Below, piece by piece: positions 35,430-44,855 of a DNA stretch of 64,000 bases. A model generated the notes under the pieces. It did no database searches. It had not been told where the DNA came from and saw only the letters and a program-made list of their open reading frames with translations. Positions within the stretch are counted from its first letter, which is position 1. Each line of letters opens with the position of its first letter. The translations under genes and the position numbers were made by a program. Origin of the DNA: Haladaptatus sp. DJG-WS-42 (GTDB taxonomy: Archaea > Halobacteriota > Halobacteria > Halobacteriales > Halococcaceae); assembly GCF_037198285.1 (NCBI RefSeq), contig NZ_CP147243.1, forward strand, positions 2,100,422 to 2,164,421, in the 5' to 3' direction.

Positions 35430-37460
35430 ATGAGTAACGACATGGATACTGACAACGTCTCGTCGGAAGCCGAAGAAGAGGTTTCTCCGGACACCGAACG
35501 GGACGAATCCAGAGATGAACTCGGCAGCGATGTCGAGGTCGGGGCCGAGTCGGCGGTTGTCGAAGCGGACGAAGACAGCCTGCTTGGTGGCCTGCAAATC
35601 ACGTCCACAGAGGACATTGAAATCCCCGACAGGTTGGTCGATCAGGTCATCGGCCAGGACCACGCCCGAGACGTCATCATGAAAGCCGCAAAACAGCGGC
35701 GTCACGTCATGATGATTGGCTCGCCGGGTACGGGCAAATCGATGCTCGCAAAGGCGATGAGTGAACTCCTGCCAAAAGAGGAGATGCAGGACGTCCTCGT
35801 CTACCACAATCCGGACGATGGCAACGAGCCAAAGGTTCGGACCGTCCCCGCGGGCAAGGGTGAACAGATTATTGAAGCACACAAGGAGGAAGCCAGAAAG
35901 CGCAACCAGATGCGCTCGTTCCTCATGTGGATTATCATCGCTATCGTGATTGGCTACTCGCTGCTTGTCGCCCAGCAGATTCTGCTTGGCATCCTCGCAG
36001 CGGGTGTTGTCTATCTCGCATTCCGGTACGGAAGCCGGTCGAGTGACGCGATGATTCCGAACCTGCTGGTCAACAACGGCGACACGAAGAAAGCGCCGTT
36101 CGAGGACGCGACGGGTGCCCACGCGGGTGCACTGCTCGGTGACGTGCGCCACGACCCGTTCCAGTCCGGTGGGATGGAGACGCCAAGCCACGACCGCGTC
36201 GAGGCTGGCGCCATCCACAAGTCGAACAAAGGCGTGTTGTTCATCGACGAAATCAACACCCTCGACATTCGCTCCCAGCAGCACCTCATGACGGCGATTC
36301 AGGAGGGCAAGTTCGCCATCACGGGCCAGTCCGAGCGCTCCTCGGGTGCGATGGTCCAGACCGAACCGGTCCCAACGGACTTCGTCATGGTCGCCGCCGG
36401 GAACTTAGACGCGATGGAGAACATGCACCCTGCACTCCGTTCCCGCATCAAAGGGTACGGGTACGAGGTGTACATGGACGACTCCATCCGCGACTCCCCT
36501 GAGATGCGCCGCCGGTACGCCCGGTTCGTCGCACAGGAAGTCGCCAAAGACGGTCGCCTCCCACACTTCACGGAAGATGCTATCAGTGAGGTCATCCTCG
36601 AAGCCCGCCGCCGTGCGGGTCGGAAGGGCCACCTGACGCTGCGCTTCCGTGACCTCGGTGGCCTCGTTCGCGTCGCGGGTGACATCGCCCGCGCCGAGGA
36701 CGCACAGGCAACCACGCGCGACCACGTCCTGCAGGCAAAACAGCGCTCTCGCTCCATCGAGCAGCAGCTGGCAGACCAGTACATCGAGCGCCGCAAGGAC
36801 TACGACCTCACCGTCAACGAGGGCGCAGTCACCGGCCGCGTCAACGGGCTTGCGGTCATGGGCGAGGACTCCGGTATCGTCCTTCCCGTGATGGCAGAAG
36901 TGACGCCATCGCAAGGCCCCGGTCGGGTCATTGCGACTGGTCAACTGCAAGACATCGCAGAGGAAGCCGTCCAGAACGTGAGCGCTATCATCAAGAAGTT
37001 CTCTGACGAGGACATCTCGGAGAAGGACATCCACATCCAGTTCGTCCAGACCGGACAGGGCGGGGTCGACGGTGACTCTGCTTCTATCACGGTGGCGACG
37101 GCAGTCATCTCCGCGTTAGAAGACATCCCCGTCGAGCAGAACCTCGCGATGACTGGGTCGCTCTCGGTCCGTGGCGACGTGCTCCCCGTCGGTGGGGTGA
37201 CCCACAAAATCGAGGCCGCCGCGAAGGCAGGCCTCGAAAAGGTCATCATTCCGGCTGCAAACGAGCAGGACGTCATGATCGAAGACGAGTACAAAGAGCA
37301 AATCGAAATCATCCCGGTCAGCCACATCAGCGAAGTGCTCGAAGTCGCACTCGCGGGCGAACCGGAGAAAGATTCGCTCGTCGACCGCTTGAAGAGCATC
37401 ACCGGACAGGCGCTCGACAAGTCGGGTCGGCCAGGCCCCGGTAGCCCAAGCCCGAACTAA
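35430..37460 (+). CDS. lonB: Archaeal membrane-bound ATP-dependent protease Lon
   Basis: A 676-residue LonB protease that degrades membrane and misfolded proteins; in Haloferax it is essential and controls carotenoid synthesis (family knowledge). An acidic N-terminal 60 residues lead to Walker A GSPGTGKS (about 97-104), two inserted membrane helices (about 165-198), Walker B GVLFIDEINTL, and the Ser-Lys dyad S550 (DGDSAS) and K593 (GVTHKIEAA). The length is normal. A CPBP protease gene starts 4 bases after the stop. A second start at ATG 35442 is possible. Confidence 0.97.
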   Translation: MSNDMDTDNVSSEAEEEVSPDTERDESRDELGSDVEVGAESAVVEADEDSLLGGLQITSTEDIEIPDRLVDQVIGQDHARDVIMKAAKQRRHVMMIGSPGTGKSMLAKAMSELLPKEEMQDVLVYHNPDDGNEPKVRTVPAGKGEQIIEAHKEEARKRNQMRSFLMWIIIAIVIGYSLLVAQQILLGILAAGVVYLAFRYGSRSSDAMIPNLLVNNGDTKKAPFEDATGAHAGALLGDVRHDPFQSGGMETPSHDRVEAGAIHKSNKGVLFIDEINTLDIRSQQHLMTAIQEGKFAITGQSERSSGAMVQTEPVPTDFVMVAAGNLDAMENMHPALRSRIKGYGYEVYMDDSIRDSPEMRRRYARFVAQEVAKDGRLPHFTEDAISEVILEARRRAGRKGHLTLRFRDLGGLVRVAGDIARAEDAQATTRDHVLQAKQRSRSIEQQLADQYIERRKDYDLTVNEGAVTGRVNGLAVMGEDSGIVLPVMAEVTPSQGPGRVIATGQLQDIAEEAVQNVSAIIKKFSDEDISEKDIHIQFVQTGQGGVDGDSASITVATAVISALEDIPVEQNLAMTGSLSVRGDVLPVGGVTHKIEAAAKAGLEKVIIPAANEQDVMIEDEYKEQIEIIPVSHISEVLEVALAGEPEKDSLVDRLKSITGQALDKSGRPGPGSPSPN

Positions 37461-37464
37461 GGCC

Positions 37465-38154
37465 GTGGCCAGGTGGGCGGCGTTTTCGGGACTCGTCGCC
37501 CTCATTTTACTCCTCTTATTATCGCTCTCCTACGCCTCGCGTTCGGTCGTGAGCGAGGAGGACGAACCCGCACCCTCGCACAACCTCTCAACGGGGTTGC
37601 TGCTCGTGAACGTCGCCTTCTCACAGGGCATCCTCGGCGTGTTTTTACTCCTCGCAGCGTGGATTTCCCAAATTCCGTGGGCCGCCCTCGGCGTCCACCT
37701 TCCTGACGCCGCGACCATCGGTCTCGGTCTCGTGCTCGGAACCGTCCTGTTCGGGGGCAACCAGCTCGGCGCGTGGACGATGCGCCGATTCGGCTTCGAC
37801 CACGAAAACGACCTGCGCGCGCTGCTCGCACCGACCACGACGCGCGGGTGGCTGTTACTCTTACTTGGTGTGTTGCCCATCATCGCAGGTTTCGAAGAAC
37901 TCCTCTTTCGCGGGGCGCTCGTCGGCGCGTTGAGCGCGGGCTACGCTGTCTCGCCGTGGGTGCTCGCCGTGTTCTCGTCATTCGCCTTCGCACTCGGCCA
38001 CGGCGCACAGGGGCTTGCGGGCGTCGTCGTCACCGGCTTGGTCGGGTTCGTCCTCGCCGCCGCGTTCATCGCTACTGGAAGTCTCGTAGTCGTCGTGGTG
38101 GCCCACTACGTCGTGAATGCGCTCGAATTCGTGGTGCACGAAGGTATTTTGTGA
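37465..38154 (+). CDS. CPBP-family intramembrane metalloprotease
   Basis: A 229-residue membrane protein with about seven helices and the CPBP/Abi (CaaX-processing-like) motifs EELLFRG (EExxxR, about 137-143), FAFALGH and a final HEGIL region. Bacterial relatives cleave prenylated or membrane proteins; the archaeal substrates are unknown. GTG start at 37465, four bases after the lonB stop, so it is almost certainly co-transcribed with that membrane protease. Convergent with the VOC gene one base downstream. Confidence 0.87.
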   Translation: MARWAAFSGLVALILLLLLSLSYASRSVVSEEDEPAPSHNLSTGLLLVNVAFSQGILGVFLLLAAWISQIPWAALGVHLPDAATIGLGLVLGTVLFGGNQLGAWTMRRFGFDHENDLRALLAPTTTRGWLLLLLGVLPIIAGFEELLFRGALVGALSAGYAVSPWVLAVFSSFAFALGHGAQGLAGVVVTGLVGFVLAAAFIATGSLVVVVVAHYVVNALEFVVHEGIL

Positions 38155-38155
38155 A

Positions 38156-39007
38156 TTAGGATTCGACGCGAACGCGTAGTTCGATGCCATCGGGACCGTG
38201 GACTCGAAGCCCGGAATCGATATCGGCCACGTCGTAGCCTGCCTCGGTCAACCGGGAGGACAGTGCGGCGAGCCCATCTTCAGCAGGCACAACGAGTTCG
38301 AACCAGTCGAGACCGCGGCCCGTCGCCGGGTCGGTGCGCTGATTCCACGTGTTCGCGCCGATGTGGTGGTGATACCCGCCAGCGGAGACGAATAGCGATG
38401 AGTCGCCGTAGGGTGATGGCAGACTTACAGGCTCGTCCATCCCGACGACCTCCGTGTAGAACGTCCGCGTTTGCGGAATCGAGGACACTTCGAGGTGGAT
38501 GTGTCCGACGTCTGTGCCAGCGGGTAACTTGCTTTCCGGGTCGCCCGATTCGCGAAGGGGTGCGAGAGAGAGCGGGAGGGTGTCCATCCGGAGGGTCCCC
38601 GCTTCGTCGCGCTCCCACTCCTCGCGGGGACGGTCTACGTAGAGTTCAATACCGTTTCCGTCCGGGTCTCTGAGATAGAGCGCCTCGCTCACGAGGTGGT
38701 CTGATGCGCCCGAGAGCTGCCAATTTTGCTCTACGCGCACGAGCGCATCTGCGAGCGCCTCGCGCGTTGGCACGCGGAAGGCGGTGTGGAACAGGCCGGT
38801 CTCCGTGCGTCTTCGTTCCGGCAGGTCAGGGTCTGCGGTGAGCTCGAGTAGTGGCGTTTCACTCGCGCCGAGCGTGGCTGTCGTGTCTGTCGTTTCGAGC
38901 ACGTCAAAACCGATGGTGTCGCGGTAGAATGAGACGAGTCGGTCAAGGTCGCTGACGCGTAGGGAAACGCGGCCAATGTGGGTGTCGGGGGCGATAGAAT
39001 CAGTCAT
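38156..39007 (-). CDS. VOC-family dioxygenase/glyoxalase-like protein
   Basis: A 283-residue protein with two vicinal-oxygen-chelate repeats (about 10-130 and 170-280), as in CatE-type extradiol dioxygenases. Metal-ligand positions are visible as HIGRVSLRV, GLFHTAFRV and GIELYVDRP in repeat 1, and VGHIHLEVS, GYHHHIGANTW and GIELRV in repeat 2. No aromatic degradation genes are nearby, so the substrate is open. ATG start; the possible end of an upstream frame overlaps it by 8 bp. Confidence 0.85.
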   Translation of the reverse strand: MTDSIAPDTHIGRVSLRVSDLDRLVSFYRDTIGFDVLETTDTTATLGASETPLLELTADPDLPERRRTETGLFHTAFRVPTREALADALVRVEQNWQLSGASDHLVSEALYLRDPDGNGIELYVDRPREEWERDEAGTLRMDTLPLSLAPLRESGDPESKLPAGTDVGHIHLEVSSIPQTRTFYTEVVGMDEPVSLPSPYGDSSLFVSAGGYHHHIGANTWNQRTDPATGRGLDWFELVVPAEDGLAALSSRLTEAGYDVADIDSGLRVHGPDGIELRVRVES

Positions 39008-39105
39008 CGAAGCTCACGGTGATTGTGTCTGATTGGGGATGTATTCGGATAGTCCCATCGCTCGCTGCAACAGTGTCGCATCGATTTGTCGGCGCGACGT
39101 GGCCG

Positions 39106-39390
39106 TCACCGCACTTGCATCGACTTGACGGCGTTTCGAATCTCGCCCGCCTTGTTGTGGGCGTGAAACAGATGCGGGCCGATAATCGACGTTCGATAGC
39201 GGAGCTTTGACTTCCGTCGTCCGTCACGGCTCGACGCTGGCGACAATGTGGCGAGATGGAGCCCGATGTTCGTTGTGTAATCGTAGTTTTTCCCGTCGCG
39301 GGTTCGTCGTAGGTGAGCCACACGTGCACTGATTCGCGCGGCGGCTTCGTCCGGTTCGACGCTCAAAAATATCGTCTCGTAGTTCACCAT
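39106..39390 (-). CDS. Small basic protein, unknown, perhaps frameshifted
   Basis: A 94-residue protein starting MVNYETIFLSVEPDEAAARI. It is rich in Arg, Lys and His, unlike the acidic proteins around it. Its ATG lies 9 bases after the stop of the MGMT-like gene, so it probably follows that gene in one transcript. After its stop, the next frame over continues as a plausible C-terminus ending TITVSFDD and overlapping the VOC start. This may mean a frameshift near 39110. No family recognised. Confidence 0.55.
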   Translation of the reverse strand: MVNYETIFLSVEPDEAAARISARVAHLRRTRDGKNYDYTTNIGLHLATLSPASSRDGRRKSKLRYRTSIIGPHLFHAHNKAGEIRNAVKSMQVR

Positions 39391-39399
39391 CCGCGTCCG

Positions 39400-39861
39400 T
39401 TACAGTCCTTCGAGCGACCGAAGTTTCTGCTCGATTTCTGGCGGGGCGGCGCTCGGCGCGTCGCGCACGCGGTGGTCTGGAATCAAAATCGGCGTCGGAT
39501 TTTCGTCTAAGGCAGTCCGCACGAGCGTCATATCGTCGTCATCCTGTGGGTTCAACTCGGGCGTGAGGCGTGCCACCTTTTCGACGGTGTACTGTTCGCC
39601 GTACGGGATTTGTCGGACTGTTTCGAGCACTCTGCGGTGGGCGGTGGGCACGGTGAGCGCGATGTCAACCGTGGCGAACGACTCGTTTACGCCCTCCAGA
39701 TAGGCGATAATGCGGTCGAGAATCGGATGGTCCGTTGAAGTTGTAGAATCGACCGTGTCGGGAAAAGAGACGGAGATGACCCGGTCGCCTGCGACCCCAA
39801 TCTGAACGTATCGGTCGAGATAGTCGGATTCTCGTGCGTAAATACCGGCAGACTCGTCCAT
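39400..39861 (-). CDS. MGMT/ATL-like protein without the catalytic cysteine
   Basis: A 153-residue protein of the O6-alkylguanine-DNA alkyltransferase fold. The winged-helix half reads VLETVRQIPYGEQYTVEKVA, and the active-site segment reads ILIPDHRVRD where alkyltransferases have PCHRV. The acceptor Cys is replaced by Asp (residue 129, codon GAC at 39475-39477). It should therefore bind alkylated DNA without repairing it directly, like alkyltransferase-like (ATL) proteins, which have Trp or Ala there. The start at ATG 39861 fits homologues remembered as beginning MDE; an upstream GTG at 39900 is 25 bp from a TATA box and cannot be excluded. Confidence 0.8.
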   Translation of the reverse strand: MDESAGIYARESDYLDRYVQIGVAGDRVISVSFPDTVDSTTSTDHPILDRIIAYLEGVNESFATVDIALTVPTAHRRVLETVRQIPYGEQYTVEKVARLTPELNPQDDDDMTLVRTALDENPTPILIPDHRVRDAPSAAPPEIEQKLRSLEGL

Positions 39862-39922
39862 AGGGGACAGAGGGCCGTCATGACCTTGAACATTCGGCAC
39901 CGCCGTCCTGTCGGCGCAAGCC

Positions 39923-39929
39923 TTATGTA
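39923..39929 (+). promoter_or_regulatory. TATA box of the trpCBA operon
   Basis: TTATGTA, centred about 29 bp before the trpC ATG. Read backwards (TACATAA) it is also well placed for the divergent MGMT-like gene. Confidence 0.5.
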
Positions 39930-39936
39930 CAAATCA

Positions 39937-39950
39937 GTTCATCATTGAAC
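39937..39950. promoter_or_regulatory. Palindrome at the trpC transcription start
   Basis: GTTCA-TCAT-TGAAC, perfect 5-bp arms between the TATA box and the ATG. A repressor bound here would block initiation; the role is inferred. Confidence 0.45.
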
Positions 39951-39954
39951 AACA

Positions 39955-40707
39955 ATGGTAGTTCAAGACGAGGTTGCCCCCGAAGTGGCCGCCATTCTCG
40001 CCTCCGCCCGAGAGCGAGATGGGGCCACCGAACGGGTATCCGTCGAACCACGGTCGCTCGAATCGGCGTTTTCTACAGCCGAGGACGCCGGTCGTGTCCC
40101 ACTCATCACGGAGGTGAAACCGACGAGTCCGACGACCGATGGCGTGCGCGCAGACGACCCCGCACAGCTCGCCCGCGAGATGGTCGCTGGCGGGGCGGCC
40201 GCCATCTCGGTGCTCACCGAACCCGACCACTTCGGCGGGTCGCTCGAAAATCTCCGTGCCGTCCGTGAGGCGGTGGACGTGCCGGTGCTCCGTAAGGACT
40301 TCATCCTCCGCGAGGAGCAACTTGACGCCGTCGAATCGGACGTTATCTTGCTCATCGTCCGATTCGTCGATGACTTGGAAACCTTGCTCACTGCCGCCCG
40401 CGACCGTGGCTTTCAGGTGCTCGTTGAGGTCCACACCGCAGCGGAACTGGACGAAGCCCTCGACGCGGGTGCGACCATCATCGGCATCAACAACCGCGAC
40501 CTGACCTCGCTCAGCGTCGACCTCGGCACGTTCGAGAGTTTGGCTCCAAAGGTTCCAGACGACGTGTTGCTCATCGCAGAGAGCGGGGTTTCGACGCCAG
40601 ACGACGTGTCGCGGATGCGCGCCGCCGGGGCGGATGGTCTGCTCATCGGAACCGCAATCATGGACGGCGACGTGACGGAAAATACGCGACTTCTCTCACA
40701 GCTATGA
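39955..40707 (+). CDS. trpC: Indole-3-glycerol-phosphate synthase
   Basis: A 250-residue TIM-barrel enzyme closing the indole ring in tryptophan synthesis. Conserved pieces are [13 protein letters not shown] (catalytic Lys), [20 protein letters not shown] and [15 protein letters not shown] start at 39955. Its stop overlaps the trpB ATG by 4 bases (ATGA). First gene of trpCBA; trpD, trpF, trpE and trpG are not here, matching the split trp arrangement known in haloarchaea. Confidence 0.97.
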
Positions 40708-41933
40708 GCGACTCACCTGCGAAATTCGGCGACTACGGCGGCCAGTACGTCCCGGAAGTGCTGATGCCCGCCATCGAGGAACTGACCGACGCGTACGAAC
40801 GCTACGTGCTCGAAAACGAAGACGGTTTCATGGACGACTTTCGCGCTCGCCTGCGTGACTTCGGGGGTCGGCCCACGCCGCTCCAGCACGCAGAACAGCT
40901 GAGCGAGCGCTACGACACCGAGGTGTACCTCAAGCGCGAAGACCTCGTCCACGGTGGCGCACACAAGCTGAACAACGCGCTCGGGCAGGTGTTGCTCGCC
41001 AAGTACATGGGCAAAGCGCGTATCGTCGCCGAAACTGGCGCAGGCCAACACGGAACGGCGACGGCGATGGCCGCGGCCCACCTCGGCATGGACTGTGAGG
41101 TGTACATGGGCCGTCGGGACATCACCCGACAGCGCCCGAACGTGTTCCGCATGCGCATCAACGGCTCGAAAGTGAACCCCGTAGACGTGGGTCGGGGCAC
41201 GCTTAAAGAGGCCATCAACGAGACGATGCGCGACTGGGCGACCAACGTCGAAGACACCCACTACGTCATCGGCTCCGTGGTCGGCCCGCATCCCTTCCCG
41301 CGAATGGTGCGCGACTTCCAGTCGGTCATCAGCGAGGAAGCCCGCGCACAGATTCGAGAGAAAACCGGTGGCCTGCCCGACAGCGTCGTCGCCTGTGCAG
41401 GCGGCGGGTCGAACACCATGGGCGCGTTCCACAACTTCGTCCCCGACGAAGACGTGGCGCTGTACGCCGTCGAAGCCGGAGGCTCCAGCCTCGACGTAGA
41501 CGAAGAGAAGGGCGTTGCGCCAAACTCCGCCTCGCTTTCGACGGGGTCGGTCGGCGTGCTCCACGGCGCGCGCACCCGTCTGCTCCAGTCGCGAGACGGC
41601 CAGATTCTCGAATCGCACAGCATCAGTTCGGGCCTCGACTACGCCGGTGTTGGGCCGGAACTCGCCTATCTCGTCGATACGGGCCGCGTGACGCCGGTGA
41701 CGGTGCCAGACGACGCCGCACTCGAAGCGTTCCACCGCTTCTCACAGGAAGAGGGCATCATTCCGGCGCTCGAAACGGCGCACGCGATTGCCTACCTCGA
41801 AACGGCCGACGACCTCGGTGAGTCGGTCATCGTGAACATCTCTGGGCGGGGCGACAAGGACTTAGAGTCCGTGCTGGAGGAGACGGCAAAGCGTGACCTT
41901 GTGAACGCGCCGGAGATGGGGGTGTTCGAATGA
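40704..41933 (+). CDS. trpB: Tryptophan synthase beta chain
   Basis: A 409-residue PLP enzyme that condenses indole and serine. The PLP lysine sits in [29 protein letters not shown] forms the substrate loop, and [10 protein letters not shown] binds the PLP phosphate. The length and motifs are of the canonical TrpB1 type that pairs with TrpA. Overlaps trpC and trpA by 4 bases each, so the three chains should be made in equal amounts. Confidence 0.98.
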
Positions 41934-42742
41934 ACGCCATCAGTGACGCCTTCCGTGAAGGCCCCGCGCTGATTCCGTACATCACGGCTGGCGACCCGGA
42001 CGCAGAAAGCACTAAAGAACAGGTTCGCGCCCTCGCTCGGGGTGGGGCGGACATCATCGAACTCGGCCTCCCGTTCTCGGAACCGATTGCGGACGGGCCG
42101 ACGATACAGAACGCCATCCAGCGGTCGCTCGACGCGGGCATGACTCCCCGAAAATACCTCGATTTGGTGGCCGACCTCGATGTGGACGTGCCGCTCGTCT
42201 GCATGACCTACTACAACCTCATCTACCAGTACGGCAACGAACCCGTGCGGGCGTTCGTCGAAGCCGCGGCGGACGCCGGGATTTCGGGACTCATCGTCCC
42301 CGACCTCCCGGTCGAGGAGTCTGACGACCTCAGGGCGGCCTGCGACGAGTTCGGCCTTGACCTCATCTTCATCGTCGCGCCGACGACGAAAGGTGAGCGC
42401 CTAGACCGCGTGATGGAGCAGGTTTCGGGGTTCGTCTACGTCCAAGCCCGTCTCGGGACGACCGGGGCGCAGGCCGACGTGAGCACCCAGACCCACGACA
42501 GCCTCGGTCGGTTGGCGAACTACGACGTGCCGAAAGCCGTTGGCTTCGGCGTGAGCGAGGGCCACCACGCCCGCGAAATCGTCGCGGCGGGAGCGGACGG
42601 CGTCGTCGCCGGGAGTGTCTTCGTTGACCTGATTGCTTCCGGCGAGGATGTGGCGTCGAATTTAGAACAGAAAGCGAGAGAACTGGCAGAAGGCGCACGG
42701 ACAGGATTCACACAACGTGTGCCGCGACCGGAACGCACATAA
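41930..42742 (+). CDS. trpA: Tryptophan synthase alpha chain
   Basis: A 270-residue TIM-barrel subunit that releases indole from indole-3-glycerol phosphate. Motifs are [28 protein letters not shown] (catalytic Glu), [13 protein letters not shown] and [15 protein letters not shown] start overlapping the trpB stop. The next gene, ADH synthase, follows after 28 bp, so the transcript may run on into the shikimate genes. Confidence 0.97.
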
Positions 42743-42770
42743 CTAACGCTTGCCACACACTAACATACTA

Positions 42771-43565
42771 ATGAATATCGGAAAAGCAGCTCGGCTCGAA
42801 CGCATCGGTACACGGGGTCGATACGTCATCGTCCCGATGGACCACGGCATTACACTTGGGGCGGTACAAGGCCTCAAAGACATCGAAGCGACGATTGAAT
42901 CGGTAACACGCGGTGGCGCAGATTGCGTGCTCACCCAGAAGGGGATTGCACCTCGCGTCCACGGAAACAAAAACGGCAAAGGCTACATCGTTCATCTCAA
43001 CGCTTCTACGACAATTGGACCGGATTCTAACGACAAACGCATGACGGGCACCGTAGAGGACGCCATTCGTGCGGGTGCAGACGCCGTGAGCGTCCACGTC
43101 AACGTCGGCTCCGACCACGAGCCAAAGCAGATGGAAGACTTAGCCCGCGTCACCTCCGAGGCAGACCGCCTCGGCATCCCCGTCCTTGCGATGACCTACG
43201 CCCGCGGCCCTGGCATCGACGAACACGACGCAGAAGCCCTCGGTCATGCCGCCCGCTTCGGTGAAGAACTCGGTGCGGACATCATCAAAACCGCGTACTC
43301 TGGCGACCCAGAGAGCTTCCGACACGTCACCGAATCGACCCGCCTCCCAGTCGTCATCGCTGGTGGCTCACGCGGCACAGACTTAGAGACCATCCAGATG
43401 GTTCGCGGCGCGATGGACGCCGGGGCAGCAGGTGTCTCGATGGGCCGGTCTATCTTCCAGCACGAGAACCCAGAAGCAATCGCCCGCGCGGTCACCGACG
43501 TCGTCCACAACGACGCCCCCGCAGACAAAGCGCTCGAACGCGCTGGCCTCGCCGTCAAAGCCTGA
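42771..43565 (+). CDS. 2-amino-3,7-dideoxy-D-threo-hept-6-ulosonate synthase
   Basis: A 264-residue class I aldolase-type enzyme making ADH, the first step of the archaeal DHQ route that bypasses DAHP. Visible are VPMDHGITLGAVQGLKD, CVLTQKGIA, VHVNVGSDHE, and the Schiff-base Lys in IIKTAYSGDPESF. Start ATG 42771 (MNIGKAARLERIG) is preferred to an upstream TTG at 42750. The DHQ synthase II gene lies 117 bp downstream, so context fixes the function over a fructose-bisphosphate aldolase assignment. Confidence 0.93.
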   Translation: MNIGKAARLERIGTRGRYVIVPMDHGITLGAVQGLKDIEATIESVTRGGADCVLTQKGIAPRVHGNKNGKGYIVHLNASTTIGPDSNDKRMTGTVEDAIRAGADAVSVHVNVGSDHEPKQMEDLARVTSEADRLGIPVLAMTYARGPGIDEHDAEALGHAARFGEELGADIIKTAYSGDPESFRHVTESTRLPVVIAGGSRGTDLETIQMVRGAMDAGAAGVSMGRSIFQHENPEAIARAVTDVVHNDAPADKALERAGLAVKA

Positions 43566-43682
43566 GCACGCGACGCTGCTTTTACTGAAATCCCCCGCCG
43601 GAGCGACTGCACTGTAACCGACTGGCGCGACGCGAGTGCCACTTCCGCCACGTTCAAGAATCCCCGCCGCGAGCGTCAGAGT

Positions 43683-44855
43683 ATGACACGCTCCGTATGG
43701 CTCAAAGCCGACGACACCGTCGGCGACTGGGAGGCGCGACGAAAACGAATCACTGCTGGGCTCGAAGCCGGTGTTGACTGGGTACTCGTCGATAGCGAGG
43801 ACGTTTCGAAAGTACGCGAACTCGGTCAGGTGAACGTCGCGGCGTTCGCAAACGGTGATGTCCACGTCATGGACGCAGAACCCGACGCGGTCGAAGACCT
43901 CCCCGACGTGACCATCGTCGGGAAAGAAGGCGAAGGCGACGGGACGGTTGACCTCCCCGCTGATTTCTCCGGCTCTGCTGACCTCTCTACCCTCCGCCGG
44001 AGCGACGAGCGCGCCCACGGTGCGTACGTCCGCATTCTCGACAAAGAGTACGAAGCGTTCGCGGAAGCCGCCGCCCACGACGCAGACTACACCATTGTCA
44101 TCGGCGAAGACTGGACCATCATCCCGCTCGAAAACCTTATCGCCCGCATCGGCGAGGAGACCGAACTCATCGCGGGCGTCCAGACCGCCCAAGAGGCGAA
44201 AACCGCCTTCGAGACCCTCGAACTCGGCGCGGATGCGGTGTTGCTCGACACCGACGACCCGGACGAGATTCGCCGCACGGTCGATGTGCGCGACGAATCA
44301 GAGCGCGAATCGCTCGACTTGCAGTGGGCGACCGTCACCGCAATCGAACAGACCGGCTCTGCAGACCGCGTCTGTGTCGATACGGGGTCACTGTTCGAAC
44401 ACGACGAAGGAATGCTCGTTGGCAGTATGAGCCGTGGGCTGTTTTTCGTCCACGCAGAGACTGCAGAGTCGCCGTACGTTGCCTCCCGGCCGTTCCGCGT
44501 GAACGCCGGTGCGGTCCACGCCTACGTTCGGACGCCAGACGGCGGCACGAAGTACCTCGCCGAACTCAAAAGCGGCGACGAGGTGCAGGTCGTCGATACG
44601 GCAGGTCACACCCGTGAGGCCATCGTCGGGCGGGCGAAAATCGAGAAGCGTCCGATGTTCCGGGTCGAAGCCGAAACGCAAACCGGCGACCGCATCGAAA
44701 CCCTCCTCCAGAATGCAGAGACCATCAAGGTCGCCACCTCTGAGGGCCGCAAGGCGGTCACCGACCTCGCGGTTGGCGATGAGGTGAAAATCTACTACGA
44801 AGACACGGCTCGCCACTTCGGGGAAGCCGTCGAAGAAAGCATCATCGAGAAGTAA
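43683..44855 (+). CDS. 3-dehydroquinate synthase II (archaeal type)
   Basis: A 390-residue enzyme that converts ADH to 3-dehydroquinate with NAD. It is unrelated to bacterial AroB. The protein starts TRSVWLKADDTVGDWEARRK, and has VDTGSLFEHDEGMLVGSMSRGLFFVHAET and the conserved FRVNAGAVHAYV block, with the terminal DUF/OB-like part. ATG start; the previous gene supplies its substrate. The convergent DUF7575-like gene begins immediately after its stop. Confidence 0.95.
   Translation: MTRSVWLKADDTVGDWEARRKRITAGLEAGVDWVLVDSEDVSKVRELGQVNVAAFANGDVHVMDAEPDAVEDLPDVTIVGKEGEGDGTVDLPADFSGSADLSTLRRSDERAHGAYVRILDKEYEAFAEAAAHDADYTIVIGEDWTIIPLENLIARIGEETELIAGVQTAQEAKTAFETLELGADAVLLDTDDPDEIRRTVDVRDESERESLDLQWATVTAIEQTGSADRVCVDTGSLFEHDEGMLVGSMSRGLFFVHAETAESPYVASRPFRVNAGAVHAYVRTPDGGTKYLAELKSGDEVQVVDTAGHTREAIVGRAKIEKRPMFRVEAETQTGDRIETLLQNAETIKVATSEGRKAVTDLAVGDEVKIYYEDTARHFGEAVEESIIEK

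Follow-up and report, generated by a model that had tools for sequence, protein, structure and literature searches.

The best-described relatives of the protein reported here are the archaeal MGMT/OGT enzymes of PF01035, such as SsOGT and M. jannaschii MGMT, and the ATLs, MGMT-family proteins that include S. pombe Atl1, E. coli ATL and TTHA1564. AGTs are described as using a glutamate to activate the acceptor cysteine, and ATLs, in the account given by the same source, do without the N-terminal domain, keep the helix-turn-helix, the tyrosine and the Arg finger, and in most cases carry tryptophan at the cysteine site (PMC10779285). A third point of reference is the SsOGT variant H5, which reportedly no longer binds DNA as a result of five substitutions in its helix-turn-helix (PMC7216122, PMC4605297), and which, although DNA-binding-null, is reported to be still labelled by benzyl-guanine substrates (PMC7216122). 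The human numbering of the Arg finger (128) and of the acceptor cysteine (145) follows PMC4605297.

We examined a gene of Haladaptatus sp. DJG-WS-42 within a stretch of 64,000 nucleotides, referred to as the window. A preliminary description of the window had read PDHRV for the PCHRV motif of an MGMT-fold protein, with a GAC codon at the acceptor position. This was borne out on the minus strand (Table 1): the 153-aa protein, P0001, has the acceptor-site motif ILIPDHRVRD, and the acceptor cysteine that MGMT carries in PCHR is absent, its place being taken by Asp129. A literature search on haloarchaeal MGMT and ATL, mostly of sources outside subscription journals, found no paper on this PDHRV family among the titles and abstracts listed.

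The gene and its haloarchaeal relatives

We placed the start of the gene at an ATG. An alternative GTG start at 39900, giving 166 aa, was rejected, as the similarity to same-genus relatives extends through residues 1-153 and is lost 5' of the ATG. PF01035 matched P0001 with 35.5 bits against a curated cut-off of 27, and matched all 61 aligned family members with E-values up to 0.01; some members of the family fall under the cut-off (25.5-26.2 bits in genomes G012, G004, G034 and G091). P0001 missed the cut-off of 46.4 of the NCBIfam ogt profile (TIGR00589), scoring 23.9 bits. An Rfam search of positions 37000-44000 gave no match, and a scan of genome contigs found a single relative.

Table 1. 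Positions in the window of the gene, of its key codons and of neighbouring genes.
Feature	Position	Strand	Basis or remark
LonB-type protease (presumed name), conserved neighbour	35430..37460	plus	in the fetched piece of 14 of 21 haloarchaeal loci
Rce1-like (CPBP) membrane protein, conserved neighbour	37465..38154	plus	
94-aa ORF (orf94)	39106..39390	minus	no Pfam match
Cys-less MGMT-family CDS	39400..39861	minus	153 aa plus stop, ATG start at 39861; PF01035
N-terminal domain, about residues 1-72	39646..39861	minus	profile alignment to full-length S. solfataricus OGT chains
Val93, base-flipping Tyr position (taken to be human Tyr114)	39583..39585	minus	alignment with Cys MGMTs
Acidic stretch, residues 101-110, with insertion between both HTH helices	39532..39561	minus	alignment, spacing
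Thr112, Arg-finger position (human Arg128, SsOGT Arg102)	39526..39528	minus	alignment
Arg115, at conserved Gly of recognition helix (presumably human 131)	39517..39519	minus	alignment
Asn121, Asn hinge	39499..39501	minus	invariant, 89/89
Asp129, codon GAC (plus strand gtc)	39475..39477	minus	acceptor-Cys position, human Cys145
His130 of PxHR motif	39472..39474	minus	invariant, 89/89
Glu144, at conserved Lys (taken to be human Lys165)	39430..39432	minus	alignment with Cys MGMTs
Glu151, site of Cys-activating Glu in AGTs (presumably human Glu172)	39409..39411	minus	invariant, 89/89
trpC-trpB-trpA (presumed names)	39955..42742	plus	divergent from the family gene

Relatives of the gene were found in 390 of the 391 haloarchaeal genomes searched. 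Of these, 387 gave a single match, while G065, G316 and G369 gave two each; the sole genome in which none was found, G339, is 88% complete. The double matches differ in kind. The gene of G316 lies in two overlapping matches (C1:2691330-2691772), as if frameshifted, that of G369 carries an insertion mid-gene (C1:1023609-1024121), and the second match in G065 (C2:1752682-1752849) is partial and far from the first.

The residue at the cysteine site is Asp in 373 of the 390 relatives, and Ser (7), Thr (5), Cys (3), Ala (1) or Gly (1) in the other 17. The preliminary description had left it to an alignment of homologues to say whether Asp is fixed in haloarchaea or whether they all carry Cys; Asp is close to fixed, and Cys is confined to the three relatives just counted. 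A DNA pattern for LxxNPxPxxxPDHR occurred in one copy each in 358 of the 391 genomes (we confirmed its position inside the gene by eye for four, G000, G122, G146 and G325), and a backward-read control pattern occurred in none of the 391, so PDHRV is not the product of chance or sequencing error. The 33 genomes without the pattern comprise 15 with Asp and a nearby change, 17 with another residue and G339.

For further comparisons we assembled a set of 89 family members, leaving out a split gene (L058); the set is rich in non-Asp members because all 17 exceptions were included. The aligned 61 rows (alignment A1) omit L062, which has an insertion. Start codons of relatives were set by a scripted rule, and fetched loci L144-L173 were used in no analysis. 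On a quick tree, from which L005 and L062 were omitted and in which the trait residue was masked as X, the states D, S, T, C, A and G at the cysteine site require at least 11 changes, and a two-state label of Asp or other requires at least 8.

The gene is under purifying selection. Against two same-genus genomes its dN/dS was 0.062 and 0.077. It had the smallest value in both comparisons, which covered 5 and 6 genes (the others being CPBP, VOC, TrpC and TrpA, plus orf94 for one of the genomes), with TrpA close behind at 0.075 and 0.079.

Residues lost, gained and kept

We compared 20 out-of-class archaeal Cys MGMTs (the outgroup) and 29 haloarchaeal Cys paralogues with the family itself, divided into four deep-branching members and a crown of 85, of which 29 rows were used for some sites. 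P0001 keeps the N-terminal domain: the family profile aligns from position 24-25 to full-length S. solfataricus OGT chains, over residues 25-152 in the case of 6ga0, and most other chains align only from about residue 75. Structure prediction from two sequences was poor (pLDDT 60.5, pTM 0.38), and this low-confidence model shows strands and a helix in the N-terminal domain. A Foldseek search with the same poor model placed MGMT-family chains at ranks 1-21, none at E ≤0.001 and with TM about 0.3, and we drew no evidence from it.

Several positions that are constant in the outgroup have changed in the family. Tyr at position 93 is present in all 20 outgroup proteins, all 29 Cys paralogues and all four deep members, and in 4 of the 89 family members overall, with Val in 21 of 29 crown rows. 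The Arg finger at position 112 is found in 20/20 of the outgroup and 17/85 of the crown, and is lost in the four deep members. Position 115 is Gly throughout the outgroup (20/20) and Arg in 69/85 of the crown and 4/4 of the deep members. At position 129 the outgroup has Cys (20/20), the deep four have Cys (2) or Ser (2), and 72 of the 85 crown members, a set that includes the exceptions, have Asp. The loop Gly at position 136, whose human number is uncertain owing to a gap, is likewise constant in the outgroup (20/20), and 24 of 29 crown rows have Pro there. Lys at position 144 is retained by 20/20 outgroup proteins, 29/29 Cys paralogues and 4/4 deep members, and is replaced in the crown, mainly by Glu (15/29) or Ala (5/29).

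In the crown the helix-turn-helix is also longer, by an insertion of about five residues. Gly88 and Asn121 stand 32 or 33 positions apart in 71 of the 84 crown rows that could be parsed (one of the 85 could not), 26-28 in 17 of 20 outgroup proteins and 27-31 in the deep four; 12 of the 29 paralogues gave an implausible spacing of 41. Six residues, T70, G88, L118, N121, H130 and E151, are invariant both in the 61 aligned members and in the set of 89. Read from the outgroup through the deep haloarchaeal branches to the crown, the changed sites look like a stepwise disarming.

One crown member, L086 in genome G328, reads PCHRV, is nested among Asp-bearing relatives and has Val at the base-flipping Tyr position. 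It is apparently a natural return to Cys.

Descent, gene order and the second MGMT

We built an unrooted tree of 82 rows, consisting of 33 of the 89 family members, 29 of the 31 Cys-pattern loci and 20 outgroup proteins that we selected among the top-scoring out-of-class matches. Two clades were each supported at 100/100, one made up of the 33 family members and the other of the 29 haloarchaeal Cys paralogues. The PDHRV family falls on the side of the 20 out-of-class archaeal Cys MGMTs, in a tree whose bootstrap was not fully settled and which does not fix the family's place among those 20.

Gene order was compared in 21 haloarchaeal loci picked for diversity, all four deep ones included. The order TrmX-TBP-MGMT-LonB occurs in the out-of-class Cys loci L176, L179 and L193 and again in the deep haloarchaeal loci L079-L081, the deep locus L078 has TrmX-TBP-MGMT, and 6 of the 20 outgroup loci have TBP near the MGMT gene. 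Outside the deep branches, the gene lies mostly between LonB/CPBP and trpCBA in the lineages examined; in the window a glyoxalase-family (VOC) gene is also found on the LonB/CPBP side. TrpC is divergent and at most about 310 bases away in 13 of the 21 loci, it is 2.2 kb off in L003, and neither TrpC nor LonB is in the fetched pieces of L073, L074 and L077. The tree and the gene order together are most simply explained if the PDHRV gene is an ordinary archaeal MGMT of the TBP-LonB locus, vertically inherited and still in place, and no new arrival.

Some details of the neighbourhood are worth recording. In the deep loci L078-L081 the family gene lies 3' of the TATA-binding-protein gene, and in L078, L080 and L081 the two reading frames share 1-4 bases, which suggests one transcript. 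The CPBP gene of H. volcanii, HVO_0784, is reported to be co-transcribed with lonB and non-essential (PMC9263693). Directly 3' of the gene in the window lies orf94, which has a relative of 71% identity in G355 (dN/dS 0.195) and no match in the other 20 haloarchaeal loci, same-genus G124 included.

The preliminary description had also proposed looking for a second, Cys-bearing MGMT in the same genome, and there is one (L001, at C1:2255442), a protein of 128 aa with the motif PCHRI and 33% identity to P0001 over 79 residues. The PCHR pattern was found in 135 of the 391 haloarchaeal genomes; in G021, G285 and G328 the match lies inside the family gene itself, and the pattern missed second copies elsewhere, for example in G036, G039 and G115. 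We read 29 distinct Cys-bearing loci as second copies, excluding L114 (the family gene itself) and L141 (a duplicate of L001). When PF01035 was run at E 0.001 on 116 haloarchaeal genomes, 39 had two matches, 76 had one and one, G052, had none, yet the family gene of G052 was found by relative search. The PDHRV family is near-universal in haloarchaea and the Cys-bearing kind is patchy, with which the reported absence of a homologue of the yeast MGT1 methyltransferase from H. salinarum NRC-1 is consistent (PMC2816208). Where an MGMT has been annotated solely from this gene, the genome may lack an alkyltransferase altogether: 77 of the 116 are without a second PF01035 match, although one of these, G021, has Cys in the family gene itself.

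Among the 29 haloarchaeal Cys MGMTs (L115-L143), the Arg-finger position is Val, Ile or Gln in 26 and Arg in three. The three with Arg belong to the window's own genus.

Possible roles and comparison with known systems

The loss of the cysteine and of the DNA-gripping parts, set against near-universal retention, suggests that the protein now has a different job. At somewhat better than even confidence, we propose that it is an archaeal MGMT that was decommissioned in haloarchaea and kept as a pseudoenzyme, a module that would bind a protein or small ligand. The sequence shows what has changed. The Arg and Tyr for base flipping are gone, as are the acceptor Cys and a conserved active-site Lys; an Arg now stands at the helix Gly, and the helix-turn-helix carries an acidic insertion. 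In the active-site region Asn, His and Glu remain, and the family signature is retained. Alkylated bases in DNA would no longer be bound or flipped, Asp129 would probably hydrogen-bond or ion-pair with the invariant His130 and so steady the old pocket, and the MGMT fold would act as the binding scaffold in some function common to haloarchaea. The repeated state changes at the cysteine site, arguing as they do against an essential nucleophile, support this proposal. Counting against it are the kept His and Glu, which could mean chemistry; the roughly 96% conservation of Asp, which implies a real preference and a specific role; the 17 of 85 crown members that keep the Arg finger; and the finding that only 23 of the 85 resemble SsOGT-H5 at all four of the sites scored below.

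The preliminary description had suggested that the protein may flag damage like an ATL, or may do something new. A damage flagger would bind O6-alkylguanine DNA without repairing it and recruit UvrABC, and it belongs to the MGMT family with the acceptor cysteine replaced, as P0001 does; a lesion sensor could be useful in the 77 genomes with no second PF01035 match, and the crown members with an Arg finger would suit the role. Several features speak against it, and we consider it unlikely. The sequence gave the flagging role no support: the N-terminal domain, which known ATLs are described as lacking (PMC10779285), is present, an acidic insertion interrupts the helix-turn-helix, and P0001 has Val for Tyr, Thr for the Arg finger and Glu for Lys, the first two changes being general in the family (Tyr missing in 85 of 89 members, Arg in 68 of 85 crown members). 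The N-terminal domain, Val93 and Thr112 rule out membership of the ATLs proper. We dropped loss of the Arg finger as stand-alone proof, as 26 of the 29 haloarchaeal Cys paralogues are without it too.

The recognition helix bears on the same point, being acidic and resembling that of the DNA-binding-null mutant. We took the 6ga0 chain, and the tag 8aes derived from it, as H5 on the basis of their changes against wild-type chains. P0001 is unlike wild-type SsOGT at all five H5 sites and equals 6ga0 at two (Thr and Glu); at the other three it has Arg where 6ga0 has Lys, Thr at the Arg finger and Asp at the fifth. A PDB search with P0001 ranked 8aes first (E 0.006) and 6ga0 third (E 0.045), both weak matches. 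Scored across the 85 crown members, the Arg finger is missing from 68, position 115 is Lys or Arg in 71, Thr116 occurs in 41 and Glu120 in 40, and the 23 mentioned above combine all four. A basic residue at 120 is present in 14 of 20 outgroup proteins and absent from 84 of 85 crown members. Over the 20 residues that precede the Asn hinge, the charge has a median of -5 in the crown (n=85), lies between -3 and -7 in the four deep members and has a median of -2 in the 29 haloarchaeal Cys paralogues. Acidity is a general trait of haloarchaeal proteins, a point against the pseudoenzyme proposal. Because of the H5-like helix sites, the lost basic residue and the acidic helix, ATL-type lesion binding appears unlikely for the PDHRV family.

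A sequence-specific DNA-binding role for the helix-turn-helix, with the protein regulating the divergent trpCBA genes, would fit the closeness of TrpC in 13 of the 21 loci, and the trp genes of Halobacterium salinarum are reported to respond to aromatic amino-acid supply (PMC4162585). Since the trp neighbour is not universal, being absent from the fetched piece in 7 of the 21 loci, with the four deep ones adjoining TBP, we treat this as a minor rival; the acidic recognition helix with an insertion ahead of it also tells against it, and we regard it as very improbable.

To an Asp-nucleophile enzyme we assign a slim chance. Here Asp129 would form an alkyl ester, His130 and Glu151 would activate water, and dealkylation would proceed with turnover, possibly on free O6-alkylguanine or nucleotides. 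The haloalkane dehalogenases, with their Asp-His-acid arrangement, offer an analogy. His and Glu are invariant in the 89 members and Asp predominates among the 390 relatives, and H5, reported as DNA-binding-null, still accepts label from benzyl-guanine substrates (PMC7216122). If it were so, Asp-His-Glu dealkylation of O6-alkylguanine compounds would mean that a suicide repair protein had been turned into a catalyst in haloarchaea. The 17 relatives with Ser, Thr, Ala, Gly or Cys and the at least 11 state changes on the quick tree stand against it, tolerance of Thr, Ala or Gly making an essential nucleophile not likely, as do the losses of the active-site Lys and the loop Gly, both invariant in the outgroup. 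A decaying relic without function is scarcely credible: hallmark catalytic and DNA-binding residues are lost and the gene is split in G316, but dN/dS, the distribution across 390 of 391 genomes and the invariant residues contradict a pseudogene.

The protein looks like a repair enzyme that lost its weapons one by one, Cys-bearing forms surviving in the deep branches, and that was then retained class-wide under selection. Like archaeal MGMT/OGT, the PDHRV family has the two-domain layout and the conserved Asn hinge, His and Glu, and it shares with some archaea the locus beside TBP and LonB; it differs in being without Cys, Tyr, the conserved Lys and mostly the Arg finger, and in its acidic helix-turn-helix insertion. 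With the ATLs P0001 shares membership of the MGMT family without an acceptor cysteine, and it is unlike them in having the N-terminal domain, in lacking Tyr and the Arg finger and in carrying Asp at the cysteine site. The Cys MGMT of its own genome belongs to the same superfamily, whereas the haloarchaeal Cys MGMTs form a separate clade with PCHR, keep Tyr and Lys and are patchy in their spread. SsOGT-H5 resembles P0001 in that the Arg finger is gone, a basic residue replaces Gly and Thr and Glu are held in common, and is unlike it in being man-made and in retaining the reactive cysteine.
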